A stretch of 64,000 nucleotides of DNA, taken from IMG/VR virus record IMGVR_UViG_3300045110_000277, positions 1-64,000 of that record; one strand, written 5' to 3'. The notes beneath the pieces were generated by a model. It saw only the letters and a program-made list of their open reading frames with translations. It made no database searches and had not been told where the DNA came from. How positions within the stretch are numbered: the first letter of the stretch is position 1; each line of letters opens with the position of its first letter. Positions 5,180 through 56,930 of the stretch are shown in pieces. The DNA is from a virus. The translations under genes and the position numbers were made by a program.

Positions 5180-5197
5180 TGCCAACGAGCGTTCGCA
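5180..5197. repeat. AACG-NN-CGTT palindrome 3 (putative operator)
   Basis: TGCCAACGAGCGTTCGCA, in the 43-nt gap between 4901-5170 and 5214. Identical to copy 2 at 504. Confidence 0.85.
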
Positions 5198-8622: not shown

Positions 8623-8640
8623 TGCCAACGACCGTTCAGA
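8623..8640. repeat. AACG-NN-CGTT palindrome 4 (putative operator)
   Basis: TGCCAACGACCGTTCAGA in the divergent control region. It lies in a longer stretch (8615-8647) nearly identical to 498-530, and 41 bp (start to start) from copy 5. Confidence 0.85.
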
Positions 8641-8663: not shown

Positions 8664-8681
8664 TCTCAACGCTCGTTCAGA
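8664..8681. repeat. AACG-NN-CGTT palindrome 5 (putative operator)
   Basis: TCTCAACGCTCGTTCAGA, followed by GCACCACC (copy 4 is followed by GCACCTCC). Tandem partner of copy 4 upstream of the rightward promoter at 8773. Confidence 0.8.
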
Positions 8682-8945: not shown

Positions 8946-8951
8946 CGTGTG

Positions 8952-9491
8952 ATGAACCGACGAAATGTGGTCACCGCCCTAGTCGTTGGGACTGTGCTCG
9001 TCACAGCTCCCGCGGCTGCCGCGAGTGCTCCCAAGACAGAGGTCCGCGCGGCTGCCCCGGCGTACGTCGCCGAGCAGCACGCCCATCCCATGAGGACGTT
9101 GAGCACGTCACGCTCGCTCCCGCGCCGGCCACCCGCCAAGGTGGCCATTCGTGTTTCCAAGCCCAAGCCGAAGGTCCACCACGTCAGCACCAGGCGCACC
9201 GCTGTCGTCCCCAGGCACTACGGCACCGCGTACCTCGTGGCCATGGCGAGCTGCATCCGGCACCACGAGTCCGGCGTGTACACCCGCAACAGCGGCAATG
9301 GCTACTACGGGGCGTACCAGTTCAGTGACGCAACGTGGCACGCCCAGACGCACCTGCCGGGGCACGCCAGCGATTATCCGAAGGCCGTCCAGGACTACTG
9401 GTTCATGCACACGTGGGCCAAACTGACGAGCGACTCTGCCAGGCAGGGCCAGTGGTCGACGTACCACTTCTGCTCGTACATCCGTCCCTGA
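8952..9491 (+). CDS. Secreted Rpf/transglycosylase-like protein
   Basis: 179 residues. MNRRNVVTALVVGTVLVTAPAAAAS is a typical signal peptide. A basic linker (about 50-90) follows, then a transglycosylase/resuscitation-promoting-factor-like domain: ASCIRHHESG with the likely catalytic Glu (about 115), then NSGNGYYGAYQFSDATW. It should act outside the cell on glycan strands. Position with the LexA-like gene rather than with the lysis genes suggests expression from the regulatory region, perhaps as a host-modifying moron. ATG 8952 is preferred to GTG 8949. Confidence 0.75.
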   Translation: MNRRNVVTALVVGTVLVTAPAAAASAPKTEVRAAAPAYVAEQHAHPMRTLSTSRSLPRRPPAKVAIRVSKPKPKVHHVSTRRTAVVPRHYGTAYLVAMASCIRHHESGVYTRNSGNGYYGAYQFSDATWHAQTHLPGHASDYPKAVQDYWFMHTWAKLTSDSARQGQWSTYHFCSYIRP

Positions 9492-9500
9492 GGGGGAGCC

Positions 9501-9713
9501 GTGTCGCTGAACCAGGACAACCCGTCCGATCTGATGGGGAAGCAGGTCCGCCTGCACACCCGTCAGGGCGACACGGTGGCCGAGGGCAAGATCATCGCCT
9601 ACACGGAGGCTCCGACCATCGTGATCGAGAAGGCGGACGGCTCGCGGATCAGCTGGAGGGCGGACCTTGCCACCATGCTCCCAGCTGATCTGCAGACCGG
9701 CGCGCCGGAGTAA
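9501..9713 (+). CDS. Small SH3/KOW-like beta protein of unknown function
   Basis: 70 residues (LMGKQVRLHTRQGDTVAEGKIIAY...TIVIEKADGSRISWRADLATMLP), a short beta-barrel pattern as in KOW or SH3-like modules; this is inferred from pattern only. A GTG start 9 nt after the upstream stop follows GAGGGGGAGCC. It lies between the secreted protein and the LexA-like gene. Confidence 0.65.
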   Translation: MSLNQDNPSDLMGKQVRLHTRQGDTVAEGKIIAYTEAPTIVIEKADGSRISWRADLATMLPADLQTGAPE

Positions 9714-9782: not shown

Positions 9783-10013
9783 ATGGCTGGACGCGCTCTG
9801 CTCAAGCAGGGCAAGGACCGCCGCAGCGCGATCTTGAAGTTCACTCGGGCCTACATCAGGAAGAACGGGTACGGCCCGTCCGTGGCGGAGATCGCCGAGG
9901 GCGTCGGCCTTGCCAGCAAGACCGCTGTGCGGCATCACCTTGCCACCCTCCAGGAGGAGGGGAAGGTCGAGATGACCCCTGGCCGCTACCGCTCGCTTCG
10001 CCTCGTGTCCTGA
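9783..10013 (+). CDS. LexA DNA-binding-domain-only protein (putative repressor)
   Basis: 76 residues, almost entirely a LexA N-terminal winged helix: KFTRAYIRKNGYGPSVAEIA (helices 1-2), VGLASKTAVRHHLATLQ (recognition helix; actinobacterial LexA has VGL..S..SV..QL..L) and a wing, GKVEMTPGRYRSLRLV. LexA is about 200-260 residues; the C-terminal S24 peptidase, Ala-Gly cleavage site, Ser-Lys pair and dimer surface are missing, so self-cleavage in SOS should be impossible. It is the best candidate to bind the LexA-box-like AACG-NN-CGTT palindromes. No perfect palindrome lies at its own start. ATG 9783 follows TAGGAAGG; upstream GTG codons are less likely. It could also be an antagonist of host LexA. 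Confidence 0.85.
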   Translation: MAGRALLKQGKDRRSAILKFTRAYIRKNGYGPSVAEIAEGVGLASKTAVRHHLATLQEEGKVEMTPGRYRSLRLVS

Positions 10014-11406: not shown

Positions 11407-11424
11407 CGCCAACGCTCGTTCGCG
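11407..11424. repeat. AACG-NN-CGTT palindrome 6 (putative operator)
   Basis: CGCCAACGCTCGTTCGCG, ending 10 nt before GTG 11435, where a bound protein could block the 5' end of the packaging operon. Confidence 0.8.
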
Positions 11425-11434
11425 GGACCACCGC

Positions 11435-12079
11435 GTGAGCATCGGGCCCGGTGTGGCCAACGTCCCGTTGGTGAAGGTGCTCACCCCGAGCGGCCAGGTC
11501 ATCGAGGTGATGGGCGCCGGGGAGCAGGACTTCTACGACGGCCAGCGGGACCGGTACCAGGCGGAGAACAGCTTCACGAATGCCTCGGACCTGCTCGACC
11601 TGGACCGGCTGCTGTTCTTCGAGCTGATGATCTTCCGCTCGACCACGTGGCTTGGTGGCGGTAAGGACTACTACGGCGACCTCCTGTCCCCTTCGCAGGA
11701 GGCCGACCAGCGGCGGTCGCTGAAGGAGAACAGCGCCCTGGTCTCGACCATCAAGAACGACCTGGGCATGACGAAGGCCCAGCGCGACAAGGCGCAGTAC
11801 GAGTCGGTCGGCACCTACATCCAGCAGCTCCGTGCCCGCGCCCAGGAGCACGGGATCAAGCGGGAGAAGGAGCTGGGCAAGGCACTGACGCTGATGAAGG
11901 AGCTGTACTCCATCGTCGGGGCGTACGACCGGGCCGACGAGACCGAGCGCAAGAAGCTCGGCTTCGAGGACGAGGCGGAGATCGTTGACTGGATCCGGAC
12001 GGTCATGCGTCCGGAGTTCGACCGCATCGACGCCTACTTCCGGGCCAACGCCCAGCGGTTCTGGGTCCGGGAGTTGTAG
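11435..12079 (+). CDS. Head/packaging-region protein of unknown function
   Basis: 214 residues, mostly helical and charged (LLDLDRLLFFELMIFRSTTWLGGG...; SVGTYIQQLRARAQEHGIKREKELGKAL). Proteins of this kind commonly precede terminase genes in actinophages, but I recognise no enzymatic motif. The GTG start follows palindrome 6. Its TAG overlaps the next GTG, so 11435-12315-12859-14487 form one coupled operon. Confidence 0.7.
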   Translation: MSIGPGVANVPLVKVLTPSGQVIEVMGAGEQDFYDGQRDRYQAENSFTNASDLLDLDRLLFFELMIFRSTTWLGGGKDYYGDLLSPSQEADQRRSLKENSALVSTIKNDLGMTKAQRDKAQYESVGTYIQQLRARAQEHGIKREKELGKALTLMKELYSIVGAYDRADETERKKLGFEDEAEIVDWIRTVMRPEFDRIDAYFRANAQRFWVREL

Positions 12080-12315
12080 TGGGCCGCAGCGGCAACCCGG
12101 CCAAGCGGGCTGTACAGAAGGGCGCTCCGCCTGTACAGCCCAAGCGGCGCCGTTGCTACTACTGCGGAAGCAAGACCAGCTCCGACGGTGAGAGCACCCA
12201 GGAGGCTCGGTTCCCGCACGCCCAGCGTCGCCAGACCTGGGACCCGATCTGCGAGGTCGCGCGCAAGACCCGGCTGGTGCAGCGGCGCCTACGCATGGAG
12301 GCCCTGGGTGGCTGA
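12079..12315 (+). CDS. Small basic zinc-binding protein
   Basis: 78 residues, strongly basic at the N-terminus (GRSGNPAKRAVQKG...KRRRCYYCGSK), with CYYCG, a later Cys and His, compatible with one zinc site and nucleic-acid binding. GTG 12079 overlaps the upstream TAG, and the end overlaps 12308. Probably a packaging-region accessory; not identified further. Confidence 0.6.
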   Translation: MGRSGNPAKRAVQKGAPPVQPKRRRCYYCGSKTSSDGESTQEARFPHAQRRQTWDPICEVARKTRLVQRRLRMEALGG

Positions 12316-12859
12316 CGGGGCGCGCCAGGCACAGTGGGAGCAGGCCCGCACCCTGTACCCGAGCACCGAGTACCAGTCGCGGGTCTGGGCGGACTACTTC
12401 GACGAGCATCCGGACGTGCTGACCAAGCTGCTCGGGGACGTGTACCGGGTCTACAAGACCGAGGAGGCCAAGCGCGCCGGCGTCTCCAACCCGCAGGGTG
12501 GCCGGCGTCGTTCGCACGTGAACGGCAACCTGGACGAGCTGTGGGCCATCCTGACGCCGAAGTTCTCGATGGACCCGTTCCCGGTGGCGGTGCGCGAGCT
12601 GATGGGCAAGAAGTCGGTGCGCCAGTTCGCTGCGGACGTGGGCATGGACCACCGCGAGCTGAGCCGGCTGCTGAACGGCGCTCGCCGCCCCAGCATGATC
12701 CACTGGCTGGAGGTGATTGCCCGCGGAGCTGATGTGCATCCGGCGTTCTTCCTGGAGTGGCGGACGGCAACGCTCGTTGGCATCATGGCCGACGCCTTCG
12801 CGTCGCAGCCGCATCTGTCGATCACCGCGCTGAAGGCTCTGGGGAGGCGACCGGCGTGA
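12308..12859 (+). CDS. Putative small terminase subunit with XRE-type HTH
   Basis: 183 residues directly upstream of, and overlapping, the large terminase. Residues about 105-145 form a helix-turn-helix of Cro/XRE style (KSVRQFAADVGMDHRELSRL, then GARRPSMIHWLEVIARG). Position and DNA-binding fold support a small terminase that selects the packaging site; a host-like regulator is possible but less likely here. A palindrome of the AACG family (12765) lies inside the coding sequence (TATLVG). Confidence 0.65.
   Translation: MADGARQAQWEQARTLYPSTEYQSRVWADYFDEHPDVLTKLLGDVYRVYKTEEAKRAGVSNPQGGRRRSHVNGNLDELWAILTPKFSMDPFPVAVRELMGKKSVRQFAADVGMDHRELSRLLNGARRPSMIHWLEVIARGADVHPAFFLEWRTATLVGIMADAFASQPHLSITALKALGRRPA
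12765..12782. repeat. AACG-NN-CGTT palindrome 7, intragenic
   Basis: CGGCAACGCTCGTTGGCA inside the putative small terminase gene, read there as codons for A-T-L-V-G. Confidence 0.75.
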
Positions 12860-14883: not shown

Positions 14884-14901
14884 TGCGAACGGCCGTTGGC
14901 A
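14884..14901. repeat. AACG-NN-CGTT palindrome 8 (putative operator)
   Basis: TGCGAACGGCCGTTGGCA in the 161-nt gap before 14990. The same gap has three GAGCAGAT direct repeats at 14923, 14944 and 14954. Confidence 0.85.
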
Positions 14902-17191: not shown

Positions 17192-18798
17192 TGGACACCA
17201 AGGACCGGATGGCGAACGGGACGTACCCGATCACCAACCAGAAGCAGGCCAAGGCGGCCTGGGACCTGCGCGGGTCCAGCAAGACGTACTCCGAGGCCGA
17301 GGTGGTCTCGCACATCCGCGCGCAGGTCGCCAAGCACGGGCTGGAGATGCCCGCCGACAAGGTGGCCCCGAAGCAGAAGGCCGCTGCTGTCCCGCCGCAC
17401 GGCTTCATCTGGCCCGAGGGGATGCCCGACTGCTCGCTGTGCGACCGGACGGCCAACGATCCGGTCCACGTCAACCCGCCCCGCAACCCGCAGCGGTTCG
17501 GGGAGAGCACGTACCGCACCGAGGCGTCCGACAAGAACCCGAACCCGTCGATGCCGGTGCGCTCCCACGCCTACACCCCGAACGTGAACATGATCACGAA
17601 CCGGGTGCTGTGCCAGGGCTGCGGGGAGAACCTCGGCAACGGCATCCACGTGGTCGGGATGCCCGCCGGGATGGTCCCGTCCAGCTCGAACTCGGGCATC
17701 TGGGGTGCCGGGCAGACTGCGGTGGGCGCCGGGGGCTCACCGTTCGGCGCCGGGCCGCAGCTGGCGGAGCTGTCCGCGCATCGGTTCGAGCCGATGGACG
17801 GCCACGACGGCTGCGGGCTGGGCTGTGGGCTGCCGAGCTCGGACGAACTGCACACGCGAACGCCCGTTCGCACCCAGCCGAGGCAGCAGGCCGACCTCTC
17901 CGACGGCTCCGCCTACGACCAGGCGCAGCGCGCCCTGGCCCTGATGGCCATCGCCGACGAGGCGCTCGACCAGGCCCAGCCGCTGCTGGCTGCCGCCCTC
18001 GGGATGCCCAACCCGGACTCCGACGATGAGCCGGTGCGGGTGGCTGCCCAGGTCGCCTTCGTCTCCGAGATCGGTCAGAAGCTGGTCTTCGCGGCGCCCG
18101 GGTCCACCGGCTTCGACGTGTCGTCGCTGCCCCGGGAGATCGCCGCCGGCTTCCAGCGGGCGAGCGCGGCCAACCCCTACAACCTGTGGGTGACGGGGCG
18201 CTACGTCGAGGCGGACCGGCCGAACCGCAACGCGGCGTACTGGTCCACCGCTGACCTGGAGGTCGGCCAGCCGTCGGTTGCGCACGGGCCGATCAACTGG
18301 AACCACCAGGAGAAGGAGATCATCGGCTGCATCGCGGCGACCGAGCTGGTCAAGGTCGAGCGCCAGGCCGCCTCCGACGTGGGCAGTCACATCGTCGCGC
18401 TCGCCGCGGTGTGGGGCTTCATCTACCCGGAGCGGGCCCGCGCGGTGCAGAAGGCGTCGGAGGACCAGAAGCTCTGGTACTCGATGGAGTGCATCAGCCG
18501 GGAGGTCGCGTGCCTGTCGGGTGACTGTGGTGTGGTGCTCCCGTACCGCGACTACATGACGCGGCAGACCTCGCGCTGCGAGCACATGCTGGGCGGCGCA
18601 CCGCGCCGGTTCGTGGACCCGGTGTTCGGCGGCGGGGCCATGATCGTCCCGCCAGTACGGCCCGGGTGGGCAAATGCCGATGCACGGGTGATGAAGCAGG
18701 CGGCCGCGTTGGCCGAACGACAGGCAGCCGCCTTCGGCGACCTGACCACCTCAGAAGCCGAGCTGCTGGTGGCCCAGCTGATCGGGACAGGAGAGTAG
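17191..18798 (+). CDS. Putative capsid maturation protease with N-terminal DUF6582-like segment
   Basis: 535 residues. The first 50 (DRMANGTYPITNQKQAKAAW) resemble the DUF6582 segment seen in phage head proteins. A Cys pair region (CSLCDRT, CQGCGEN, CGLGCGL) suggests zinc binding. The C-terminal half (from about 300) has WVTGRYVEADRPNRN, VAHGPINWNHQ with a His near the expected catalytic position, and GFIYPERARAVQ, like prohead proteases. The slot between portal and scaffold/capsid supports this. Catalytic residues cannot be assigned with certainty. Confidence 0.6.
   Translation: MDTKDRMANGTYPITNQKQAKAAWDLRGSSKTYSEAEVVSHIRAQVAKHGLEMPADKVAPKQKAAAVPPHGFIWPEGMPDCSLCDRTANDPVHVNPPRNPQRFGESTYRTEASDKNPNPSMPVRSHAYTPNVNMITNRVLCQGCGENLGNGIHVVGMPAGMVPSSSNSGIWGAGQTAVGAGGSPFGAGPQLAELSAHRFEPMDGHDGCGLGCGLPSSDELHTRTPVRTQPRQQADLSDGSAYDQAQRALALMAIADEALDQAQPLLAAALGMPNPDSDDEPVRVAAQVAFVSEIGQKLVFAAPGSTGFDVSSLPREIAAGFQRASAANPYNLWVTGRYVEADRPNRNAAYWSTADLEVGQPSVAHGPINWNHQEKEIIGCIAATELVKVERQAASDVGSHIVALAAVWGFIYPERARAVQKASEDQKLWYSMECISREVACLSGDCGVVLPYRDYMTRQTSRCEHMLGGAPRRFVDPVFGGGAMIVPPVRPGWANADARVMKQAAALAERQAAAFGDLTTSEAELLVAQLIGTGE
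17855..17872. repeat. AACG-NN-CGTT palindrome 9, intragenic
   Basis: CGCGAACGCCCGTTCGCA inside the putative protease gene. It contains CGAAC-N4-GTTCG, the LexA/SOS-box pattern of Gram-positive bacteria. Confidence 0.85.
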
Positions 18799-19875: not shown

Positions 19876-19893
19876 TGCCAACGGCCGTTCGCA
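19876..19893. repeat. AACG-NN-CGTT palindrome 10 (putative operator)
   Basis: TGCCAACGGCCGTTCGCA, ending 2 nt before the -35 element of the WhiG-like promoter at 19896. Binding here should interfere with expression of the scaffold/capsid genes. Confidence 0.85.
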
Positions 19894-24742: not shown

Positions 24743-25663
24743 GTGTTCGAGGACTACCTGGACGTTCTCGGCCAGTCCCGGGCGGACGTGCAGCTGTTCA
24801 AGGCCGGGGCCAACGCGCAGACGTGGCGCAAGCCCCGCGGCGCGCAGATGCTGCACATCGTGCTGTTCACCGCTGGTGGCGGTGGCGGCGGTGGGATGAC
24901 CGGCCTGACGGCGACGGTGCGCGGTGGTGGCGGTGGCGGCGGCGGCGGCGCGATCATCCAGGCGATCATCCCGCTGTACTACCTGCCTGACGTGCTGTAC
25001 CTGTCGGTGCCCCGTGGTGGCGCGGGTGGCGCGGCGACGGTGAACGGCTCGGCAGGCAGCATCCAGTCGCTGGTGTTGACCAACAACGTGACGCCCGCGG
25101 CTCCGGCGGGAAGCGACATCGTGCTCGGTGGCCAGGCCGGCTTCCTCGGCGCCGGGGGTACGGCCGGCTCTACGGGCGGCTCGGCGTCCGGTGGCTCGGG
25201 TGCGGGCGCTTCCAACGCCAACGGCGGCTGGGCGGTGATGGGCATCCGCAGCTTCCTGGCTGGCGGGAACGGCGGCGCGGGCGGTGTGGTCGGTGGCGGT
25301 GCGGGCACGGGCCTCACCATCGCCGGTGCGTCGCCGTACCGGATCTTCGGCGGCGCTGGCGGGGCGACAACGCCCGCTGGCAACAACGACTTCGCCGGCG
25401 GCGGCTTCACCGGCGCGGGCCTGTTCCCCAGCACGGCAGGCGGCACGGCCGGTGGCGGCAAGGGCGACGGGTCCCCGGCCTACTTCAACGGCTCCCTGGT
25501 CGTCTACGGCGGCACGGGTGGCGGCTCAGCGGGCGCTGGGACCGGCGGCGACGGTCAGGACGGTGGGTACCCGGGCGGCGGTGGTGGCGGCGGTGGCGGC
25601 GGCATCACGGGCGGCAAGGGCGGCAAGGGCGGCGACGGGCTCACGATAATGATTGCCTGGTGA
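24743..25663 (+). CDS. Glycine-rich adhesin-like protein, paralogue 1
   Basis: 306 residues, about a third glycine. A ~45-residue N-terminus (QLFKAGANAQTWRKPRGAQM) leads into long polyglycine stretches separated by short hydrophobic strands (IIQAIIPLYYLPDVLYLSV), ending in a Gly-rich block and LTIMIAW. Such layouts occur in phage receptor-binding adhesins whose glycine runs form polyglycine-II layers (T-even gp38-like). It aligns along its length with the next two proteins. GTG start 6 nt after the upstream stop. Confidence 0.7.
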   Translation: MFEDYLDVLGQSRADVQLFKAGANAQTWRKPRGAQMLHIVLFTAGGGGGGGMTGLTATVRGGGGGGGGGAIIQAIIPLYYLPDVLYLSVPRGGAGGAATVNGSAGSIQSLVLTNNVTPAAPAGSDIVLGGQAGFLGAGGTAGSTGGSASGGSGAGASNANGGWAVMGIRSFLAGGNGGAGGVVGGGAGTGLTIAGASPYRIFGGAGGATTPAGNNDFAGGGFTGAGLFPSTAGGTAGGGKGDGSPAYFNGSLVVYGGTGGGSAGAGTGGDGQDGGYPGGGGGGGGGGITGGKGGKGGDGLTIMIAW

Positions 25664-25667
25664 GCTG

Positions 25668-26606
25668 ATGTTCCTCGACGCGATGGACGCACCGCCGTTC
25701 AACCTCGGCGCCAGCGACCTGCAGGTGTTCAAGGCGCAGGCGCCGGGCACCCAGGTCTGGCAACAGTGGCAGCGCCGACGCGGCGACACCATGTGCATGA
25801 TCACCTGCCTGGGCGCGGGCGGCTCTGGTGCGGGCGGCATGACCGGTGCGACCGGCTCGGTCCGCGGTGGCGGTGGCGGTGGTGGCAGCGGAGCGGTCGC
25901 CCGGCTGCTCATCCCGGTCTTCTTCCTGCCCGACACGCTGTTCATCAACGTGGGCAAGGGCGGGGCCGCGGTCGCCGCGGTTGCCGCGGGGAACCCGGGC
26001 AGTCTCAGCTACGTCAGCGTGGCCCCGAACACCACCGCGACCAACATCCTGCTGCAGTCCGGCGCGGCGGCAGCTACGGCGGCCACGGCGGGCTCCACGG
26101 GCGGCTCGGCGGCTGGCGGGGCGGCGGAGACCATCTCCACCATCGCGCTGTGCCTGCTGGCGAACCTGGGCATCGTGGAGTTCGCGGCCGGGCGGGCGGG
26201 GGCCATCGGCGGGGTGGTCGGCGGCGGGGCGGGCACCGCGATCACGTGGAACGCGGCGACGTACCCGATCCAGTCCGGCTCGGGTGGCGGGACCACGCCG
26301 GCGGCCAACAGCCAGTTCGCCGGCGGGGCCCAGACCGGCTCCGGCTTCACGCTGCCAACGGTCGCTGGCGGCGCGTCTGGTGGCAACCCGGGCGACGGCA
26401 CCATGGGCCCGCCGAACAACGGGGTCGGTGGGTGGGCCTCCTACGGCGGCGTCGGTGGTGGCACCGGCGGGGCCGCCGGTCAGGTCGGTGGCAAGGGTGC
26501 AGACGCCGCGGGGTACGGCGGTGGCGGTGGCGGTGGAGGCGGTGGCGTGACCGGCGGTGGCGGTGGGGCCGGAGGCGACGGCCTGGTCACCATCGTCAGC
26601 TGGTAG
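25668..26606 (+). CDS. Glycine-rich adhesin-like protein, paralogue 2
   Basis: 312 residues with the same order as its neighbours: LQVFKAQAPGTQVWQQWQRR, RGDTMCMITCLGAGG, a Gly run, AVARLLIPVFFLPDTLFINV, GGVVGGGAG, a TTPA block, AGGAQTGSGF, and a terminal Gly-rich tail plus LVTIVSW. ATG 25668 begins 4 nt after the upstream stop. Middle segments differ more than the ends, as expected for receptor-binding loops. Confidence 0.7.
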   Translation: MFLDAMDAPPFNLGASDLQVFKAQAPGTQVWQQWQRRRGDTMCMITCLGAGGSGAGGMTGATGSVRGGGGGGGSGAVARLLIPVFFLPDTLFINVGKGGAAVAAVAAGNPGSLSYVSVAPNTTATNILLQSGAAAATAATAGSTGGSAAGGAAETISTIALCLLANLGIVEFAAGRAGAIGGVVGGGAGTAITWNAATYPIQSGSGGGTTPAANSQFAGGAQTGSGFTLPTVAGGASGGNPGDGTMGPPNNGVGGWASYGGVGGGTGGAAGQVGGKGADAAGYGGGGGGGGGGVTGGGGGAGGDGLVTIVSW

Positions 26607-26634
26607 CCAGATGACCCTTCCGCCGAGCCGATAG
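26607..26634 (+). promoter_or_regulatory. WhiG/FliA-like promoter candidate
   Basis: CCAG (26607-26610), 16 nt, GCCGATAG (26627-26634), only 7 nt before ATG 26642, so the transcript would be nearly leaderless. Confidence 0.5.
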
Positions 26635-26641
26635 GACGAGC

Positions 26642-27541
26642 ATGTACCAGGACCACTTCGGCTTCCCGCCGCCAGCTCCTGGGGACACGCAGGTCTTCCG
26701 CGCCGGACCGATCTGGGACACCTGGCACAAGCGTCGCGGCGACACGATGCTGTACATCGTCGCCTTCGGCTCGGCCGGCGGCGGGGGCGGCGGCAAGACC
26801 AACGCCATCGGCAACGCGCGAGGCGGCGGCGGCGGGGGCGGCTCGGGCGCCATCATGCGCCTGCTCATCCCGCTCTACCTGGTGCCCGACATCCTGTACG
26901 TCTTCGTCGGCCGGGGCGGCGCCGGTGGCACGCCGGGTAACCCGGGCTCCTCGGGCGACTTCAGCCTGGTCAGCTTCCAGCCGTCCACCTCGCTCGACGT
27001 GCTGGTCAAGACCGGGAACGCGGTGGCCGGCGGCGGGGCGGCCGGCACGACCGGCTCCAACGCTGGTGGCTCGGCCGGCACCATCGCCACGCTGGCGAAC
27101 TGCCCGATGGCCGCCTTCGGCATGGCCAACTTCATCGCCGGGAAGATCGGTGCGGCGTCCGGCGCGAGCACCGGTGCGGCCGGGCTCAACAACACCATCG
27201 CCACCACGCACCAGCTGAACGGCGGTGCGGGCGGCGGCACCACGCCCACCGGCAACACCGAGTTCGCGGGCGGCGACCAGACCGGGGCGGGCATCTTCCC
27301 GACGGTCACCGGCGGCGCGGGTGGCGGCAACCCTGGGCCCGGGGCGGGCGGACTGCTGCTGGACCGCCCGTTCATGTCCTACGGCGGCTCAGGCGGTGGC
27401 ACGGGCGGCGCGGCAGCGACCGTTGGCGGCCGTGGTGGAAACGGTGCCGTCGGCTCCGGCGGTGGCGGCGGTGGCGGGGGTGTCACCGGCGGGACCGGTG
27501 GCTCCGGCGGCGACGGCCTCGTGCTGATGACGAGCTGGTGA
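26642..27541 (+). CDS. Glycine-rich adhesin-like protein, paralogue 3
   Basis: 299 residues. QVFRAGPIWDTWHKRRGDTM matches paralogue 2 (RRGDTM), then GAIMRLLIPLYLVPDILYVF, AGGAGGTTP-like blocks, AGGDQTGAGIFP and a Gly-rich end with LVLMTSW. It has its own promoter-like site upstream, unlike paralogue 2. The three genes may give alternative or heteromeric tips. Confidence 0.7.
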   Translation: MYQDHFGFPPPAPGDTQVFRAGPIWDTWHKRRGDTMLYIVAFGSAGGGGGGKTNAIGNARGGGGGGGSGAIMRLLIPLYLVPDILYVFVGRGGAGGTPGNPGSSGDFSLVSFQPSTSLDVLVKTGNAVAGGGAAGTTGSNAGGSAGTIATLANCPMAAFGMANFIAGKIGAASGASTGAAGLNNTIATTHQLNGGAGGGTTPTGNTEFAGGDQTGAGIFPTVTGGAGGGNPGPGAGGLLLDRPFMSYGGSGGGTGGAAATVGGRGGNGAVGSGGGGGGGGVTGGTGGSGGDGLVLMTSW

Positions 27542-27544
27542 GCC

Positions 27545-29434
27545 GTGGCCTTCGGCGGCGATAGCGCCTTCTCCGAGTACCCGTTCGCCGCACAGGCGGC
27601 CGGGCAGCAGCTCACGCGCACCACTTCTGACGACGCGACGGTCAGCGACTCGGTGGCGCGCTCTGTGGTCCTCGCGCGCACTACGTCGGACGCGGTGGGC
27701 TCCATCGCGGCCGTTCCAGCCAACGCGACGATCATCATGGGCGCGGCTGGCTGGATTACCAGCGGCACCGGCAACAGCCACCCCATCGTGATGACCATTC
27801 CGGCCGGGGCCCGGGTCAACGACCGGGTGTACATGGCGTTCGGCGAGAACGGTGGCGTCGCCATTCCCGTTCCGACCGGGTGGCGGCCGATCCTGGTTCC
27901 CGCTGCGTACAACGGCAACATCCTCAGCTGCGCCATCTTCGAGCGGGACGCGCTGCTCGGGGTGGGCGAGGCTGGCTCCACGGTCACCGTCGACATCGGC
28001 CAGAGCCGGGTGCAGATCGGCGTGATCTTCACCAGCGACGGCGACCTGGACGCGGTGAGCGCGGTCAGCAACCAGACCTCGCTGCAGTCCACGAACACGG
28101 TGCCCGCGGTCACCCCGGTCACTGACAACGCGCTGCTGCTGGAGATCGCGTTCCTGGTCTCCACCACGAACGCCCAGACGTACACGAGCACGCCACCGAC
28201 CGGCTACAGCACGCTGTTCGACCAATGCACCTCGAACGCGGGCGCGAACAAGAACATCGAGATCTTCATCGCCAGCAAGCAGCTGTCCGGCCAGAAGACG
28301 ATCTCGCAGGGTCCGACCTTCTCCACCCCGTCGGTGCAGACAGAATCGGTGGTGGTGTCGCTGACGTTGACCCAGGCCGCCAAGGAGCGGGCGGTCGCCA
28401 ACGTCGGCCGGTTCGCCTCGACCAGCGACAACGCCACGGTCAGCGAGACGGCGGTGCGCTCCGCCGAGGTGTACGCCCGCACGACCGCCGACAGCGTGCC
28501 CGTCAGCGAGAGCCTGGCCCGTACTGCACAGGTGTTCAGCCGCACCACGAGTGACTCGGTGGTGGTCTCCGAGGCGCTGTCCAGCCACGTCACGGTGGCC
28601 CGCACCACGGCCGACTCCGTGGTGGTCAGCGAGGCCGCGGTCCGCTCCGCTGACAACTACTCGCGCACGGCCTCCGAGACTGCCACGGTCTCCGAGACGG
28701 TTGCCCGGTCGCTGCTGCAGGCTCGCGCCCCGTCGGACGCCGTGTCCGTCTCGGACACCACCACCCGCGTGGTCGCCCAGTCCCGTACTACCTCGGACAA
28801 CGCCACGGTCTCCGACGTGGCCTCCGGCGTCATCGGCGGCAACCTGCACCTCACGCGCACCGCGTCGGACTCGATCAGCACCAGCGAGTCGGTGGCCCGG
28901 ATCGTCGTCCTGCCCCGCGCGGTGGCCGCTTCGGTGCCCGTCAGCGAGAGCCTGGCCCGCACCGCGCAGGTCTTCGCCCGGTCCACCTCGGACAGCGTGG
29001 CCGTCGTCGAGTCGGCGACCCGCTCGGCCGAGGTCTTCGCTCGCACGAGCTCGGACAGCGTGCCGGTCTCGGATGCCAACGCTCGTTCGCAGCATGACTT
29101 CAGGTCGACTGGGGAGTCGGTCCCGGTCAGTGAGGCGGCGACTCGGGCTTCCCAGGCGTTCGCCCGGACGACGGCCGACACCGCCGTGGGAGCCGCCTCG
29201 GTCTCCTCGCACACCGCCGCGTCGCGCACCACGTCGGACTCGTTCGCGGTCGGCACCAGCACGCCCACCCCGGTGTACGTGCCGTCCATCAAGGATCCGG
29301 AGATCGAGGAGGCCGGCGCCCTGGTTGGCGTCACCACCACGGGCGTGGTGCTCGGCGTGACCACCACGAGCGTGCTGCTCGCATCGCCCACGCTCGGCGC
29401 CGATATCGACCCCATCGACACGATGACTCGCTGA
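27545..29434 (+). CDS. Repeat-containing virion protein (RTTSD-VSE repeats)
   Basis: 629 residues. About 60-290 form a globular beta domain (IIMGAAGWITSGTGNSHPIV...). About 290-600 hold roughly a dozen degenerate ~18-25-residue repeats of the form R-T-T-S-D-S-V-x-V-S-E-s-x-A-R-s. The same repeat begins the tail protein at 40506. A short C-terminal domain follows (SIKDPEIEEAGALVGVTTTG). The repeats suggest an elongated beta stalk. GTG start 3 nt after paralogue 3. Contains palindrome 11. Confidence 0.7.
   Translation: MAFGGDSAFSEYPFAAQAAGQQLTRTTSDDATVSDSVARSVVLARTTSDAVGSIAAVPANATIIMGAAGWITSGTGNSHPIVMTIPAGARVNDRVYMAFGENGGVAIPVPTGWRPILVPAAYNGNILSCAIFERDALLGVGEAGSTVTVDIGQSRVQIGVIFTSDGDLDAVSAVSNQTSLQSTNTVPAVTPVTDNALLLEIAFLVSTTNAQTYTSTPPTGYSTLFDQCTSNAGANKNIEIFIASKQLSGQKTISQGPTFSTPSVQTESVVVSLTLTQAAKERAVANVGRFASTSDNATVSETAVRSAEVYARTTADSVPVSESLARTAQVFSRTTSDSVVVSEALSSHVTVARTTADSVVVSEAAVRSADNYSRTASETATVSETVARSLLQARAPSDAVSVSDTTTRVVAQSRTTSDNATVSDVASGVIGGNLHLTRTASDSISTSESVARIVVLPRAVAASVPVSESLARTAQVFARSTSDSVAVVESATRSAEVFARTSSDSVPVSDANARSQHDFRSTGESVPVSEAATRASQAFARTTADTAVGAASVSSHTAASRTTSDSFAVGTSTPTPVYVPSIKDPEIEEAGALVGVTTTGVVLGVTTTSVLLASPTLGADIDPIDTMTR
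29074..29091. repeat. AACG-NN-CGTT palindrome 11, intragenic
   Basis: TGCCAACGCTCGTTCGCA inside the repeat protein gene, read in the phase giving A-N-A-R-S. This breaks the regular amino-acid repeat, as if DNA-level selection overrides it. Confidence 0.85.
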
Positions 29435-35459: not shown

Positions 35460-35477
35460 CGCCAACGACCGTTGGCA
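35460..35477. repeat. AACG-NN-CGTT palindrome 12 (putative operator)
   Basis: CGCCAACGACCGTTGGCA in the 48-nt gap before the tape measure gene; perfect arms. Confidence 0.85.
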
Positions 35478-40505: not shown

Positions 40506-42965
40506 ATGACTCTGTTCACGCGCACCGCCTCGGACAGCGCCGCTGTCTCCGAGTCGGTTGCGCGCGTGTGCAGGCACCCGCGCAGCACGTCGGACAGCGT
40601 GCCCGTCGCCGAGGCGCACACCCGGTCTGTCCACCGGTTCAAGACGACCTCGGACTCGGCGGTGGTGTCCGAGTCGAACATCATCCTGGGTCCGCTGATC
40701 AACCTGAGCGTGCCGGTCGGTGGGGTGAACGCGGCGACCGGCCAGCTGCCGACGGAGGTGCTCGGCGCGTACTACGAGGTGGCCCTGGCAGCGGCCGTTG
40801 GCGCCTACGCTTCCGGCCAGCCGGTCGGGATCTACCTGGGCGCGCTGAGCTACATCTTCGACTTCGACTGCCCCGAGGTGCAGGTCGGTGGCCGGCTGCC
40901 GTCGCTGTTCGTCGGCACCCCCGGGGTGGACGGGGACTTCTTCGGCCTGCCGATCATCTTGTCCGGGCTCAGTGGCACCGGGACGTTCAGTCTGCAGGGT
41001 GCCACGGTGGAGACCGGCGAGCAGGACGCGCTGAACGCCCTGGAGCCCACCGGCGGCCGGGTGGTGGTGCCGACCGCGATCCAGATCGGCGCGACGGTCA
41101 ACGTGCCGGACGCGACCCCGGCCAGCTTCACCGCGGTGCAGGCCACCATCGGCCCGCTGACGGTGCGCCGGGTGTTCTCCTCCAGCCTGCCCACGCACAT
41201 GCCCGCGGGCATCGCGGGCATCGTCGCGTTCTACTCGTTCAAGTCGAACACGACCATCCAGGACCTCATCAACGGCGTGCATGACGCGGCGGTGCGAACG
41301 CTCGTTCAGAGCCTGCCCAACGGCACGTACCTGACCAGCTACCACGAGCCCGAGAACGACATGGACGGCGACACCTTCGTCGCGCTCATGGACCACCTGT
41401 ATCCGCTGGTGAAGTCGATCAACCCGACGATCCAGTTCGGCCCGGTCTACATGACGTACTGGTGGCGCCCGTCGCTGTCGGGCGTGGGCAAGCCGGGCAA
41501 CGGTCACAACCCGCAGCCGAAGGACTCGTGGGAGCCGCACGACTACGACTTCCTGGGGTGTGACAACTACGCGCAGCCGCCGCAGACCCCGCTGGAGCTG
41601 GCCTCCGACACGACGTTCCAGAACTGGTACACCTGGGCGAAGGCGAAGGCGAACGCGGCCAACGTGCCGGTGTGCATCGTGGAGTACGGCGCGGGCGCGA
41701 TCACCTCGGGCATGACCGGGGGCGAGCGGGCCACCATGGAGGCTGCTCGCGCGGTCGTCATCGCCAACGACGGCACGTACGTGGCCAGCGAGCCCACCAT
41801 CGGCATGTGGCTGCTGTGGGACGGCACCGGCGCTGCTGGTGACTGGTTCCTGCACGACAGCGCCAGCCAGGCCGCGTGGGCGGCCATCGCCTCGGGCGGC
41901 AGCACCACCGGCACGGCGTTCGCGGGCATCGGCGACAAGAGCATCTGGATGCAGTTCACCGCGCCGCTGGACGGCACCTTCACCTTCACGGTGGACGACG
42001 CCTCGACGCCGGACTACCGGCTGGCCATCTACCACGGCGAGGCCATCGACGACCCGGCGATGGTGCTGCTCGGCGAGGTGTTCGCCAACGGCTCGACGGA
42101 CCCGACGCTCTCGGTGGAGTTCAGCCGGGGCGAGTCGTACTACGTCTACGTCAACAAGGTCGACGGCACGAGCACCACGTACCCGCTGCAGAGCTACACC
42201 TGGTCGTTCGGCCCGGCCGTGCTCGGCCCGGTGCTGACCATCGACCCGAACATCCTGGACCGGGTGCCAACGGGCCTTGTCGTCTCGTTGGTGAACATGC
42301 TCGACGGCGGTGAGGCGGTCGACTTCACCCTGGTCGGCAACGCCAGCGTGCTGGCCACCTTGCAGGCCGACGAGCAGGGCACCATCGTCGGCGTCACGGT
42401 GCCGCTGGGTCTGCCGCTGTCGGCGGGCACGTACACCCTGCAGGCCACCGGCGAGTCCTCCGGCCGCGTCGGCTCCTGCACCTTCCAGCTGCTCAACGAC
42501 CCGATGACTCGGCCGGCGCCGCCGCCCGACGACGTGCCGGTCTCGCCGCCAACGCAGGTTGGCATCCAGCGGTGGGTGTTCCAGGACCCGATGCCCGGCG
42601 GCCTGGCCACGCTGGTGTTCCCGGCGAACCCGGAGAAGGCGAGCAGCTTCTACGCCCCGGTGCCGGTCACGGTCGAGCACACCGTCGCGCAGGACGGCAC
42701 CGCGGTGGTCTGGGAGGGCGCACCCACGGCGCTGGCCGCGCAGTTCAGCGGCTACACCACCGACGAGACGTTCTACCTGGCGGTCGAGGCGTACGCCGCG
42801 CTGAACCGCAAGTTCTACCTGATCGACCACCGCAGCAAGGTGTGGGTGGTCGCGCTGACCAGCTTCGGCCCGGACCGGCGCATCGTGCAGCCGGTGCATC
42901 AGACCGACTCGTCGTGGGCGTGCAACTACACCGCGACCGTGATGATCTTTGCGGGGCCGATGTGA
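40506..42965 (+). CDS. Tail-tip protein: RTxSD repeats, GH26-like domain, distal-tail-like domain
   Basis: 819 residues. About 1-58: three RTxSDS-V-VsE repeats like those of the 27545 product. About 60-240: beta/GH-like beginning (VGGVNAATGQLPTEVLGAYY). About 230-430: GH26-like core with YHEPEND (acid/base Glu near 280) and CIVEYGAG (nucleophile Glu near 391). About 480-680: Ig-like domains. The last ~130 residues (QRWVFQDPMPGGLATLVFPA) are related to the start of the next protein and look like a distal-tail domain. Probably digests surface glycan at the tail tip. Confidence 0.75.
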   Translation: MTLFTRTASDSAAVSESVARVCRHPRSTSDSVPVAEAHTRSVHRFKTTSDSAVVSESNIILGPLINLSVPVGGVNAATGQLPTEVLGAYYEVALAAAVGAYASGQPVGIYLGALSYIFDFDCPEVQVGGRLPSLFVGTPGVDGDFFGLPIILSGLSGTGTFSLQGATVETGEQDALNALEPTGGRVVVPTAIQIGATVNVPDATPASFTAVQATIGPLTVRRVFSSSLPTHMPAGIAGIVAFYSFKSNTTIQDLINGVHDAAVRTLVQSLPNGTYLTSYHEPENDMDGDTFVALMDHLYPLVKSINPTIQFGPVYMTYWWRPSLSGVGKPGNGHNPQPKDSWEPHDYDFLGCDNYAQPPQTPLELASDTTFQNWYTWAKAKANAANVPVCIVEYGAGAITSGMTGGERATMEAARAVVIANDGTYVASEPTIGMWLLWDGTGAAGDWFLHDSASQAAWAAIASGGSTTGTAFAGIGDKSIWMQFTAPLDGTFTFTVDDASTPDYRLAIYHGEAIDDPAMVLLGEVFANGSTDPTLSVEFSRGESYYVYVNKVDGTSTTYPLQSYTWSFGPAVLGPVLTIDPNILDRVPTGLVVSLVNMLDGGEAVDFTLVGNASVLATLQADEQGTIVGVTVPLGLPLSAGTYTLQATGESSGRVGSCTFQLLNDPMTRPAPPPDDVPVSPPTQVGIQRWVFQDPMPGGLATLVFPANPEKASSFYAPVPVTVEHTVAQDGTAVVWEGAPTALAAQFSGYTTDETFYLAVEAYAALNRKFYLIDHRSKVWVVALTSFGPDRRIVQPVHQTDSSWACNYTATVMIFAGPM
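41293..41310. repeat. AACG-NN-CGTT palindrome 13, intragenic
   Basis: TGCGAACGCTCGTTCAGA within the GH26-like tail gene (codons R-T-L-V-Q). Confidence 0.8.
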
Positions 42966-44260: not shown

Positions 44261-46434
44261 GGCTCGTGACCGACGACACCAACGCCGCGTGGCAGGCCGC
44301 TTTCAAGGGCGGTGACACGCGACCGGTCGTTCGCGCGACCATCCAGAAGATGGACGTGAAGCTGTGCCCGTACAAGCGGCCCACGCAGAACGGGGTCGCG
44401 GGCAACAGCGGTGTCTTCGCCAGCGCCATCTTCGGCCAGGACTTCCAGCCGGTCGAGCTACCCAACCTGGCCAGCGTGAAGTGGACGCGCTCGGTGGACC
44501 AGGACGTGGCCCAATGCGACATCGTGATCTGGAACACCGAGCGCCTGGCGGTCGGCGAGGTGCCACCCGACGACGTGAGCTTCGACAAGCCCGGCTACAT
44601 GACGTTCAACCGCGGCGTGGACCCGGCCGCCGTCAGCCGGTGGGGGTACGCGGCCAATGGCTGGCGTGACCTGCTGGTGCCCGACCGGATCATCCGCACC
44701 TTTGAGGGCTACGGCTTCGACCCGTCAGTCACCCCGGAGGCCGACCCGAACCTGTACCCCTCCGGTGTGTGGCTGATCGACGACGTGGAGTACAGCGCCG
44801 ACGGCACGATCAAGGTGTCCTGCCGCGACATGGGCCGGGTGCTGCTCGACCAAATCTTCTTCCCGCCGGTCGTGCCGTTCAGCGAGTACCCGTTCACCTG
44901 GATCCCGGACCAGACGGTGCCCGGCCCGCCGAAGCTGACCACCTCCAGCGGGTGGAAGCGCCCGGTGTACGAGACCGACTCGGGCATCCCGTACATCGGC
45001 AAGGGCTTCACCGACGGGTCGTTCCCCTACGTCGACTCCACCGGTGCGGTGCTGGGCCACCATGGGCGCTACGCCTTCGACACCAACGTGGCGAGCTACT
45101 GGCTCTCGGTCGGCAACGAGGCCAGCTGGAGCTCGGCGTTCGAGTACGTGCAGGGTGCCATCAGCGGCGCTGTCCACGCGGTGCAGCTGAAGACCTGGGG
45201 CGGTCCGTACCTGGTCTACGTCAGCCTGTGGGATGGCAGCAAGTGGCTGGGCAGCCGCAAGATCCCTTACCGCGCAAGGGTTGTGGACACCAACGCCGAT
45301 ATCCCGTTCGTCGACTCGTTCACCGCGGGCAAGTCGACAACGACCGTTCGCGCCCTGCCCAAGGCGTACGCCGGCATCACCAAGATCCGGCTCACCTTCA
45401 CCGACCTCTACAACAGCGGCATCGGCGAGTTCAAGTACCGCGCGGGCTGCTACGACATCCAGGTCAACGAGTCGGTGGTCACCAGCACGCCCACCACGAT
45501 GGTCATCGGGAACATGGCCGACTACACCGACATCGTGAAGTGGGTCTGCGCGTGGGGCGGGTTCTTCTGGCCCGACGAGTCCACCGGCTTCGACTATCTG
45601 ACCAACGCGGACGGGACGACAACGAACGTTGTCGCCTCCACCCCGGATCCCGTGCTGCCCACTGGGCGGGTGTGGGGCGACTTCGAGGGGACGGGCACCA
45701 ACAGCCTGATCCCGCTCACCCCGGACATCTGGGACAAGAAGCCGCTGATGGACTCGATCACGTACGTGCGCAACATCGTCAACTTCATCTTCTTCATCGA
45801 CGAGACCGGCGGCGTGGTCTGGCGGAGCCCGAACATCTGGCAGGAGGGCAACTACATCGGCGGTGGGCTCAACGACGCCGATATCGGCCGGACCACCGAG
45901 GGCCGCACGTCCACGGTGTACGTCATCGACGAGCAGGACACCATCCTGGGGCTGCGGCCCAAGCTGAGCAGCCGGGCGATGCGCGAGCGGTACTTCGTGG
46001 CCAACACCGACGGCGCGTTCGGCGCGGTGTCACCGCCCATCGGCAGCGTCAGCTACAACCCGTACCCGTCGGGGCTGCGCCGGGTGGCCGGCTGGACTGA
46101 CCAGCACTTCTCCACGCAGGCGGAGTGCCAGATCATGGCCGACCTGATCGCGGTCCGCTCGATGTTCGAGTACCGCACCAACGTGGTCACCGTGCCCGGC
46201 AACCCGGGCCTGCAGGTGGACGACCAGGTGCGGATCATGGAGCGGGTCACCGGCGAGACGTACCTGCACTACGTCCGGGGCATCACCAGCGACTGGGACG
46301 CCAAGAGCGGCAAGTGGACGTACGAGATCGAGACCCACTGGCTGGGCCTGACGCCGTTCAGCAACTGGGCGTTCGACCCGTCGCTGCTGTCGGCTGAGAC
46401 CAAGCAGTACCTCACGGCATTGGGGAAGATCTGA
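44257..46434 (+). CDS. Tail hub / minor tail protein
   Basis: 725 residues following the distal tail protein, where the tail hub (Tal-like) protein lies. RLVTDDTNAAWQAAFKGGDT, SVKWTRSVDQDVAQCDIVIW, GVWLIDDVEYSADGTIKVSC and a later NPGLQVDDQVRIMERVTGET are typical of baseplate-hub folds with a central galactose-binding-like insert (about 260-410). Contains palindromes 14 and 15. Overlaps both neighbours. Confidence 0.7.
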   Translation: MRLVTDDTNAAWQAAFKGGDTRPVVRATIQKMDVKLCPYKRPTQNGVAGNSGVFASAIFGQDFQPVELPNLASVKWTRSVDQDVAQCDIVIWNTERLAVGEVPPDDVSFDKPGYMTFNRGVDPAAVSRWGYAANGWRDLLVPDRIIRTFEGYGFDPSVTPEADPNLYPSGVWLIDDVEYSADGTIKVSCRDMGRVLLDQIFFPPVVPFSEYPFTWIPDQTVPGPPKLTTSSGWKRPVYETDSGIPYIGKGFTDGSFPYVDSTGAVLGHHGRYAFDTNVASYWLSVGNEASWSSAFEYVQGAISGAVHAVQLKTWGGPYLVYVSLWDGSKWLGSRKIPYRARVVDTNADIPFVDSFTAGKSTTTVRALPKAYAGITKIRLTFTDLYNSGIGEFKYRAGCYDIQVNESVVTSTPTTMVIGNMADYTDIVKWVCAWGGFFWPDESTGFDYLTNADGTTTNVVASTPDPVLPTGRVWGDFEGTGTNSLIPLTPDIWDKKPLMDSITYVRNIVNFIFFIDETGGVVWRSPNIWQEGNYIGGGLNDADIGRTTEGRTSTVYVIDEQDTILGLRPKLSSRAMRERYFVANTDGAFGAVSPPIGSVSYNPYPSGLRRVAGWTDQHFSTQAECQIMADLIAVRSMFEYRTNVVTVPGNPGLQVDDQVRIMERVTGETYLHYVRGITSDWDAKSGKWTYEIETHWLGLTPFSNWAFDPSLLSAETKQYLTALGKI
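45335..45352. repeat. AACG-NN-CGTT palindrome 14, intragenic
   Basis: CGACAACGACCGTTCGCG in the tail hub gene (codons T-T-T-V-R). Confidence 0.75.
45617..45634. repeat. AACG-NN-CGTT palindrome 15, intragenic
   Basis: CGACAACGAACGTTGTCG in the tail hub gene: both 8-bp arms are exact complements, but the flank is GAC/GTC instead of GC(C/G). Confidence 0.75.
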
Positions 46435-48281: not shown

Positions 48282-48299
48282 TGCGAACGCTCGTTGGCG
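48282..48299. repeat. AACG-NN-CGTT palindrome 16 (putative operator)
   Basis: TGCGAACGCTCGTTGGCG, directly upstream of the GGGGAGGA ribosome site of the membrane gene at 48315. Confidence 0.85.
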
Positions 48300-48827: not shown

Positions 48828-49189
48828 TGGCTGACCACGCAGCGCCCGGCACCGGATGGCTGAACCTGCTCGACAAGGTACCTCCGGCCGTGCGGCACGC
48901 CCTCATCCTGCTCATCGGTGCTGGCCTGAGCTACGCCTCGGCGCACCTGCCGGACCTGCACCTCCAGCAGCCGTACCCGAACTTGCTCGGCGGCGCGCTG
49001 GCGATGCTCCTGCTGATCGTCACCCCGCTCACCTCGCAGTACGGCGTGGGCAAGAAGGTGGACGACGCGGCCCAGGCCCAGGCGGACCTGGACGCAGCCG
49101 TACAGCTCGTGCTGGGGGCGGCCAAGGACGCTGCAGCTGCCAAGCTGGGCGCGCCAACGGACGTTGCCGTCCAGCCTCCTGTGGCATAG
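48827..49189 (+). CDS. Membrane protein, second holin candidate
   Basis: 120 residues: a basic-flanked hydrophobic helix (VRHALILLIGAGLSYASAHL), a second (LLGGALAMLLLIVTPLTSQY), then a Lys/Asp/Ala-rich helix (VGKKVDDAAQAQADLDAAVQ). The fold fits class II-type holins. ATG overlaps the upstream TGA, so the two are coupled. Confidence 0.65.
   Translation: MADHAAPGTGWLNLLDKVPPAVRHALILLIGAGLSYASAHLPDLHLQQPYPNLLGGALAMLLLIVTPLTSQYGVGKKVDDAAQAQADLDAAVQLVLGAAKDAAAAKLGAPTDVAVQPPVA
49152..49169. repeat. AACG-NN-CGTT palindrome 17, intragenic
   Basis: CGCCAACGGACGTTGCCG near the 3' end of the second holin-like gene (codons P-T-D-V-A). Confidence 0.75.
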
Positions 49190-49675: not shown

Positions 49676-49693
49676 TGCCAACGCTCGTTGACA
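49676..49693. repeat. AACG-NN-CGTT palindrome 18 (putative operator)
   Basis: TGCCAACGCTCGTTGACA, intergenic, immediately before the promoter elements of the structured leader. Its right arm contains TTGACA, so binding and a -35 element could coincide. Confidence 0.85.
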
Positions 49694-50949: not shown

Positions 50950-51591
50950 ATGTCCCTCAAGAGCGAGCTCTACAAGGAGCTCGGTGAGCTGGAGGACGCC
51001 AACGGGCGTCTGCGTGCTGCGATGGCTTCCTGCGAGCAGGAGCTGACCGAGACCCGGCTCGGTCGGGACGAGGCGCTGGCCCGTGAGTCCGACGCCAACG
51101 CCCACAACACCGCGCTGCAGGAGTCGCTGGAGCGGGCACGCCTGCAGCGCACCGACCTGCGTGAGCTGCTGCTGGCGGCGCGAACGACCATCAGCGAGCA
51201 GAAGCGTGACAACGAGCGTTTGACACTGGAGGGCAAGCTCCTCCTCGACCGCATCCAGGCGGTCCACACGCTGACCTGCCCGGACTGCTGGCCGGACGGC
51301 GTGATGTTCACCGGCCTGGGCCCGACCGGCTACGAGACGGAGACCGGCAGGGAGGTCCAGCAGGCCACCCCGTGGAGCCCGTGCGACAGGCACACCGCGG
51401 AGGTGCGCCACGCGGAGTTCCAGAGCCGCATCCTCGTGATGCCGTTCGAGCCGGCGCCGGGCCAGGCCGAGGACGGGTCCATCGACGACGCCGAGACGTA
51501 CTTCGGCGAGGGCACCCACCTGGGCCTGGCCGAGCAGGCGGGCAAGGCGTTCCGTGACGCGGCGAACGCCGAGGGGATGCCGCAGCCGTGA
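50950..51591 (+). CDS. Coiled-coil protein of unknown function
   Basis: 213 residues. The first ~95 are a coiled coil (LKSELYKELGELEDANGRLR and following). A Cys pair (CPDCWPDGVMF, about 110) and C...H residues (SPCDRHTAEVRH) suggest a zinc site. The acidic C-terminus ends GMPQP. ATG 50950 preferred over 50923. Its stop overlaps the next GTG. Confidence 0.65.
   Translation: MSLKSELYKELGELEDANGRLRAAMASCEQELTETRLGRDEALARESDANAHNTALQESLERARLQRTDLRELLLAARTTISEQKRDNERLTLEGKLLLDRIQAVHTLTCPDCWPDGVMFTGLGPTGYETETGREVQQATPWSPCDRHTAEVRHAEFQSRILVMPFEPAPGQAEDGSIDDAETYFGEGTHLGLAEQAGKAFRDAANAEGMPQP
51207..51224. repeat. AACG-NN-CGTT palindrome 19, intragenic
   Basis: TGACAACGAGCGTTTGAC in the coiled-coil gene (codons D-N-E-R-L); core perfect, flanks degenerate. 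Confidence 0.65.
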
Positions 51592-56702: not shown

Positions 56703-56930
56703 ATGGCCTACGTCCGGCCGCCGACGCCCGTTGGCACCGCACCCACAGAGCGGGAGATCGAGGTCGCCCAGCTCGTAGCGATGGGCCACAGCAACAAGGT
56801 GATCGGCAAGCGGTTGTACCTGTCCGAGGACACCGTGAAGACCCACCTGCGGCACCTGTCCGCACGGCTGGGCACCAAGAGCAGGGCGCACACGGTGATG
56901 GTGCTGCTGCGACGGGGGCTGATCCGGTGA
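56703..56930 (+). CDS. LuxR/NarL-type HTH protein 1
   Basis: 75 residues, nearly all HTH: PTEREIEVAQLVAMGHSNKV, IGKRLYLSEDTVKTHLRHLS, then ARLGTKSRAHTVMVLLRRGL. There is no receiver or ligand domain, so it would act as a bare DNA-binding regulator, probably as a dimer. The stop overlaps the start of a paralogue. A one-mismatch AACG palindrome (56719) lies in its first codons. Target unknown. Confidence 0.8.
   Translation: MAYVRPPTPVGTAPTEREIEVAQLVAMGHSNKVIGKRLYLSEDTVKTHLRHLSARLGTKSRAHTVMVLLRRGLIR

Follow-up and report, generated by a model that had tools for sequence, protein, structure and literature searches.

The window analysed here is a stretch of 64,000 nucleotides taken from an 86,079-base viral record (G000). 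An open reading frame at 9783–10013 on the plus strand, running from an ATG at 9783 to a TGA at 10013, encodes a 76-residue product, MAGRALLKQGKDRRSAILKFTRAYIRKNGYGPSVAEIAEGVGLASKTAVRHHLATLQEEGKVEMTPGRYRSLRLVS, and just 5′ of it lies the ribosome-site-like stretch AGGAAGGG. It is preceded on the same strand by a transglycosylase-like gene (8949–9491, with the start at 8949 or 9141; gene call and PF06737, E = 4.6e-06) and by a gene for a small conserved phage protein without assigned function (9501–9713; phrog_30799, 1e-4). The first of these is also the first gene downstream of two palindromes, AACGACCGTT at 8627–8636 and AACGCTCGTT at 8668–8677, which lie in tandem 41 bp apart in the gap upstream of this gene cluster and are probable operators. 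Gene boundaries were taken from a simple codon-usage gene caller, which was checked against only part of the annotation of mycobacteriophage Cosmo.

The preliminary description of this DNA took the product to be the DNA-binding head of LexA without its cleavage and dimerization module, and called for a profile comparison and a structure prediction. Both bear out the assignment. The Pfam LexA_DNA_bind profile (PF01726) matches with E = 6.5e-17 and 61.5 bits (cut-off 23.7), residues 12–70 aligning with profile positions 6–64 of 65, and the N-terminal winged-helix domain of LexA is thus present. The NCBIfam lexA model (TIGR00498) is matched only over positions 6–69 of 203 and, at 56 bits, falls below its cut-off of 111, which indicates that the protein is a head and not a LexA. 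The AlphaFold model has a mean pLDDT of 83, and its best PDB matches in Foldseek are the Escherichia coli LexA–DNA complexes 3jso and 3jsp and the LexA DNA-binding domain 1lea. The protein differs from bacterial LexA in that the reading frame ends at residue 76, with no linker, no Ala-Gly cleavage site and no C-terminal S24 domain for self-cleavage and dimerization. Neither the 86,079-base record nor the relatives searched yielded an S24 peptidase domain (PF00717), and this frame encodes the sole LexA DNA-binding domain of the record. A split LexA with its S24 part on a separate protein was considered and rejected, since the record lacks such a domain. Given the missing self-cleavage domain, the protein is predicted to be insensitive to RecA and to act according to its own amount, independently of the SOS response.

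The protein falls among the truncated phage LexA heads, which are phage-encoded, consist of the head only and are shorter than about 95 residues. The gp13 proteins of the Wildcatvirus mycobacteriophages Wildcat and Cosmo, annotated as 'LexA-like DNA binding domain protein', are likewise LexA heads only (77–78 residues), and their genes, too, are close to the terminase in the left arm; Cosmo gp13 is 43% identical to the 76-residue protein over the domain. A further likeness is to gp6 of GIL01, a tectivirus of Bacillus thuringiensis. This gp6 is a phage-encoded LexA head alone; it recognizes a palindrome that differs from the SOS box of the host and activates the late promoter P3 (PMC6182141), from which it appears that a head alone can bind and regulate. 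An earlier suggestion that a separate protein might be needed for dimerization is therefore retained in part: such a partner is possible, but the binding of a palindrome by the gp6 head alone argues that it is not required. GIL01 differs from the phage studied here in being a small temperate phage of an unrelated type with a site at one promoter, P3, that is activated; the sections of its report consulted describe no genome-wide array (PMC6182141), whereas the window phage has many sites.

Exact AACGnnCGTT palindromes occur 43 times in the record, 30 of them inside the window, compared with 0–1 in Markov shuffles of the record and about 0.6 expected from a dinucleotide model, so that the LexA-box-like array mentioned in the preliminary description is confirmed. 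A symmetric profile raises the number to about 80 sites, against 1.6 in shuffles. The sites are spread over the entire phage genome, and a test for regular spacing found none in the record. The extended consensus is two-fold symmetric, G-n-Y-G-C-S-AACG-nn-CGTT-S-G-C-R-n-C, and the form of the site is written here as TGCCAACGAGCGTTCGCA.

Apart from the tandem pair, ten of the sites in the window are intergenic. Those at 151–160, 508–517 and 14888–14897 lie in gaps between genes, while others stand at a short distance from a start: 5184–5193 (25 bp 5′ of the next start), 11411–11420 (37 bp 5′ of the start of the gene at 11453–12079, and in the same place in the relatives G044 and G042), 19880–19889 (87 bp 5′ of a start, and in the same place in G042 and G019), 35464–35473 (30 bp 5′ of a gene for 1521 residues), 48286–48295 (24 bp 5′ of a start) and 61804–61813 (28 bp 5′ of a start). 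The right half of the site at 49680–49689 continues into TTGACA. The remaining sites are intragenic. One, at 12769–12778, is within a helix–turn–helix (HTH), small-terminase-like gene, and another, at 53675–53684, is within a Sak4-like gene and has a counterpart at a comparable place in G042 and G014, as does that at 45621–45630. Two lie in the gene for a phage sigma factor (62712–63458, with regions 2, 3 and 4 recognized by Pfam), at 63092–63101, a place shared with G014, and at 63310–63319. Those at 17859–17868 and 59727–59736 fit the full SOS box as well. The others are at 29078–29087, 41297–41306, 45339–45348, 49156–49165, 51211–51220, 57482–57491, 57970–57979, 58184–58193, 60582–60591, 62445–62454 and 63942–63951.

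Over the whole record, 15 of the 43 sites are intergenic compared with 4.1 expected, a 3.6-fold enrichment (P = 6e-6). The other 28 are intragenic, where the encoded proteins and the codon usage of the genome would predict 0.45, and 20 of them share one codon phase (xxA ACG nnC GTT). This excess within genes, mostly in a single phase, indicates that the sites are kept by selection at the level of the DNA. Several are placed alike in relatives whose proteins are only 30–59% identical.

The AAC-n4-GTT core of the array has the same spacing as the Gram-positive LexA/SOS box, a likeness to bacterial LexA that adds to the shared winged-helix head. The flanks differ. Most sites read [C]AACGnnCGTT[G], C being the more frequent base before the core and G the more frequent base after it, which is the opposite of the Gram-positive LexA box; the extended consensus, TGCSAACGnnCGTTSGCA, is distinct from the bacterial SOS box, and the sites are on the phage genome. 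Only three of the 43 match the full actinobacterial/Bacillus box CGAACn4GTTCG, which suggests that the protein acts mainly on sites of the phage itself. The record contains five perfect CGAACn4GTTCG boxes (at 59725, 17857 and 60056 of the window and at 83664 and 84591 of the record). Three of them are array sites as well, and host LexA might bind all five.

The same figures weigh against the proposal, made in the preliminary description, that the protein competes at host SOS boxes. A dominant competitor that blunts the host DNA-damage response could be imagined from the LexA-head fold and the common core spacing, and the LexA-like Wildcat gp13, a relative, has been reported to be toxic to Mycobacterium smegmatis (PMC7474061). 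However, the dozens of phage sites, mostly with C and not G at the flank, would draw the protein off to phage DNA, and the reported binding partner of Wildcat gp13 is Msmeg_1285, which is not an SOS gene (PMC7474061). We consider competition of this kind very improbable.

To see whether array and protein occur together we can compare contigs from IMG/VR that were fetched by the DNA pattern alone. A LexA DNA-binding domain is encoded in six of the seven site-rich contigs; among the site-poor contigs from the same fetch one of 34 passed the cut-off for the domain, as an open frame of 224 residues. The site-rich contig without the domain, G014, is also without the head-gene module that the domain gene adjoins, and all array-bearing relatives that have this module in the contig encode a LexA-head-only protein. 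The density of the array in AACG contigs is 2.4–8.7 sites per 10 kb. Two further contigs fetched by protein alone (L241 and L242) carry four and six array sites, compared with 0.05–0.07 expected. The array-bearing contigs form one broad phage lineage with terminase, portal and capsid-region genes in common. Since all of them are related phages, the co-occurrence on its own is weak and non-independent evidence, and the simple association (Fisher P = 1e-5) was downgraded accordingly.

Relatives were sought in several other ways. A search of the viral contigs with the single 76-residue query returned none; a 12-sequence alignment of the domain was too diverse to serve as a query, and subgroup alignments worked. 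The phages collection contains only distant relatives of the domain and of the terminase. One relative of the domain was found in bacterial genomes, in a metagenome-assembled genome from the Oscillospiraceae (L245), with only one AACG site. Contig G035, with 18 sites, was dropped as an array-positive case: the central bases of its sites are almost fixed, it shares almost no genes with the other contigs and it carries an ACGGCCGT repeat instead. In this unrelated contig (locus L107) the 8-mer ACGGCCGT is itself a dispersed palindrome, with 41 copies in 12 kb compared with 0.26 expected.

Five terminase relatives (L142, L152, L158, L159 and L147) encode a LexA head in which the recognition helix reads RSS[IV]QYH; in the alignment, the helix of most of the AACG clade is of the type [KR][TSN]x[VI]xxH. 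At residues 46–51 of the recognition helix, KTAVRH in the one clade corresponds to RSSIQY in the other. The AACGnnCGTT array is absent from all five. A de novo motif search in this sister (TTCG) clade revealed an array of TTCGTACGAA at 3.7–4.6 sites per 10 kb with at most one mismatch, a density similar to that of the AACG array, and no TTCGTACGAA site occurs in G000, G031, G042, G044, G045 or G046. Intergenic positions account for 26 of the 34 sites in the TTCG clade, and many lie 14–21 bp 5′ of gene starts, including those in the terminase and portal region. Of the proteins that the record shares with the TTCG contigs, just one, the LexA head, is a recognized DNA-binding regulator.

Sites are also found close to the gene for the regulator itself. 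In four of the five TTCG-clade contigs an TTCGTACGAA site lies about 29–30 bp 5′ of the head gene; in one of these four, L147, the site has two mismatches to TTCGTACGAA. The site falls within the spacer of exactly 17 bp that separates TTGnAC from TAnnnT, two sequences resembling −35 and −10 elements, an arrangement that would suit a promoter repressed by its own product. The AACG clade has close pairs of sites upstream of the head gene, in the record (8627 and 8668), G031 (40 bp apart), G044 (42 bp) and G019 (72 bp). The pair in the record lies about 1.1 kb upstream of the head gene, with the two genes described above in between; no other two array sites in the 86 kb are less than 80 bp apart. 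No exact site was found within 1.5 kb upstream of the head gene in G043, a contig truncated at its end, or in G045 and G028. The change of site from clade to clade tracks the change of protein, and with the operators near the regulator's own gene this favours the pairing of protein and AACG palindromes that had been suggested at the outset, although the two motif clades are also divided by phylogeny, which counts against the argument. Taken at the level of sequence, the LexA head and the array look like one evolving, phage-owned gene-control system.

It could be argued that the array is read by some other protein, such as host LexA, the HTH small-terminase-like protein encoded at 12308–12859 or a further factor, and that the LexA head is a bystander. 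The HTH gene is indeed present in the AACG contigs that bear the head, where it is common, and three of the 43 sites do fit the full host box. However, the TTCG-clade contigs show no match to the HTH gene, a host protein poorly explains two mutually exclusive motifs in sister clades, and the sites in the upstream region of the LexA-head gene itself point to its product. We therefore regard another reader as quite unlikely.

Our preferred interpretation, to which we assign a probability of about 0.7, is that the 76-residue protein is an autoregulated phage LexA-head regulator acting at dispersed operators, probably as a repressor or roadblock in the manner of the L5 stoperators. Two heads would bind each palindrome of roughly 22 bp, with AACGnnCGTT as its core, and would form their dimer on the DNA. 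The predicted operator pair upstream of its own gene cluster would allow the protein to control its own synthesis, and at sites just 5′ of starts and within genes it would most probably repress initiation and block passing RNA polymerase. Repression or roadblock is favoured because of the spacer position of the site at the regulator's own gene in the sister clade and because of the intragenic sites. A broader proposition seems to us about evenly balanced: that this is a class of genome-wide phage control not described before, in which a LexA head of minimal size, no longer subject to SOS cleavage, would silence or organize the whole genome through dozens of palindromes that selection keeps even within coding sequence, the specificities of protein and site co-diverging from one phage clade to another.

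An activator or timing switch, in which the LexA head at dispersed sites would turn on phage promoters together with the phage sigma factor, is a tentative possibility. The phage does encode its own sigma factor, many sites lie 15–40 bp 5′ of gene starts, some run into TTGACA or TTGGCA, and the truncated LexA of GIL01, gp6, has been proven to act as an activator (PMC6182141). Against this, the majority of the sites of the window phage are intragenic, the sister-clade site occupies a promoter-like spacer at the head gene, a position typical of repression, and no consistent promoter was found at a fixed spacing from the AACG sites. A search for a FliA/WhiG-like promoter tied to the array sites likewise found none. 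A protein that coats or organizes the genome, with one site per 1–2 kb serving compaction, protection, replication or packaging and with little direct control of genes, would account for sites that run genome-wide and through genes under DNA-level selection. We consider it unlikely, as the intergenic enrichment, the conserved placement before particular genes and the operators near the regulator's own gene point to gene control, and the spacing of sites in the record is irregular. A separate test for ParABS-like segregation found none, and neither ParA nor ParB was found in the record. A tyrosine or serine integrase was not found there either, so a role in lysogeny is not implied; an integrase is present in one array relative, G031.

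The preferred reading of an autoregulated LexA-head repressor invites comparison with the repressor–stoperator systems of the L5, Bxb1 and R4 type (PMC6550527, PMC9283540, PMC10276819). In both, a small phage protein has tens of sites over its own genome; enrichment in short intergenic gaps, a site at the regulator's own gene and co-variation of motif and protein among relatives are further shared features. The 43 dispersed sites, 15 of them intergenic, thus resemble stoperators in number and placement, but the resemblance does not extend to the form of the site or of the protein. The L5 repressor is a 183-residue two-domain monomer that binds asymmetric 13-bp sites oriented with transcription (PMC6550527, PMC9283540, PMC10276819), whereas the window phage has a single LexA winged helix of 76 residues, in place of the two-domain repressor of the Cluster A type, and a two-fold symmetric site. 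In addition, about two thirds of its sites are inside genes, which differs from classical stoperators. The limited literature set searched yielded no account of a LexA head coupled to an array of sites across the genome. If our interpretation is correct, the stoperator strategy arose again with another protein fold and a symmetric site, and the DNA-binding head of an SOS repressor can be recruited as a free-standing, damage-blind master regulator of a phage. AACGnnCGTT and TTCGTACGAA with their respective proteins would then provide a natural series of pairs in which to test how winged-helix specificity changes and how immunity groups among phages could come about.

Not every LexA head comes with such an array. 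A third group, with a recognition helix containing ..ATMHSYL.. (G047, G048 and G049), has the DNA-binding domain, and no clear palindromic array was found in it; Cosmo differs from the window phage in the same respect: its 78 kb contain only two AACGnnCGTT, and we could find no clear array of palindromes in it. Alternative palindromes in Cosmo, G047, G048 and G049 were mainly period-3 coding artefacts, with the exception of one asymmetric repeat in G047. In this relative of 144 kb (loci L254–L261) the repeat CAATCCGAACAT(T) has 29 matches at two mismatches or fewer, for example at 797, 830, 11042, 38811, 78479, 85555, 92153, 126453 and 137901. Its well matched copies are almost all intergenic and mostly oriented with transcription, and it resembles the L5 stoperators or a phage promoter element.

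Several other features of the phage genome deserve mention. Besides the sigma factor it encodes primase-helicase, Sak4, exonuclease, RuvB-like, ligase and Ku-like proteins. Neighbouring genes at locus L003 (15635–16564 and 16561–17406, minus strand) encode an ATP-dependent DNA ligase and a Ku-like end-binding protein, a possible phage end-joining pair. A LuxR-type HTH gene is located at 56927–57142 (GerE, 3e-15) and is preceded by a second LuxR-HTH-like copy (99-nt direct repeat D12; 56751–56849 and 56963–57061). Finally, glycine-rich repeats (GGTGGCGGTGG) occur in the region 24900–27550, in genes that follow one another and are similar in size (24743–25663 and 25668–26606); their products are perhaps tail-fibre or surface proteins.
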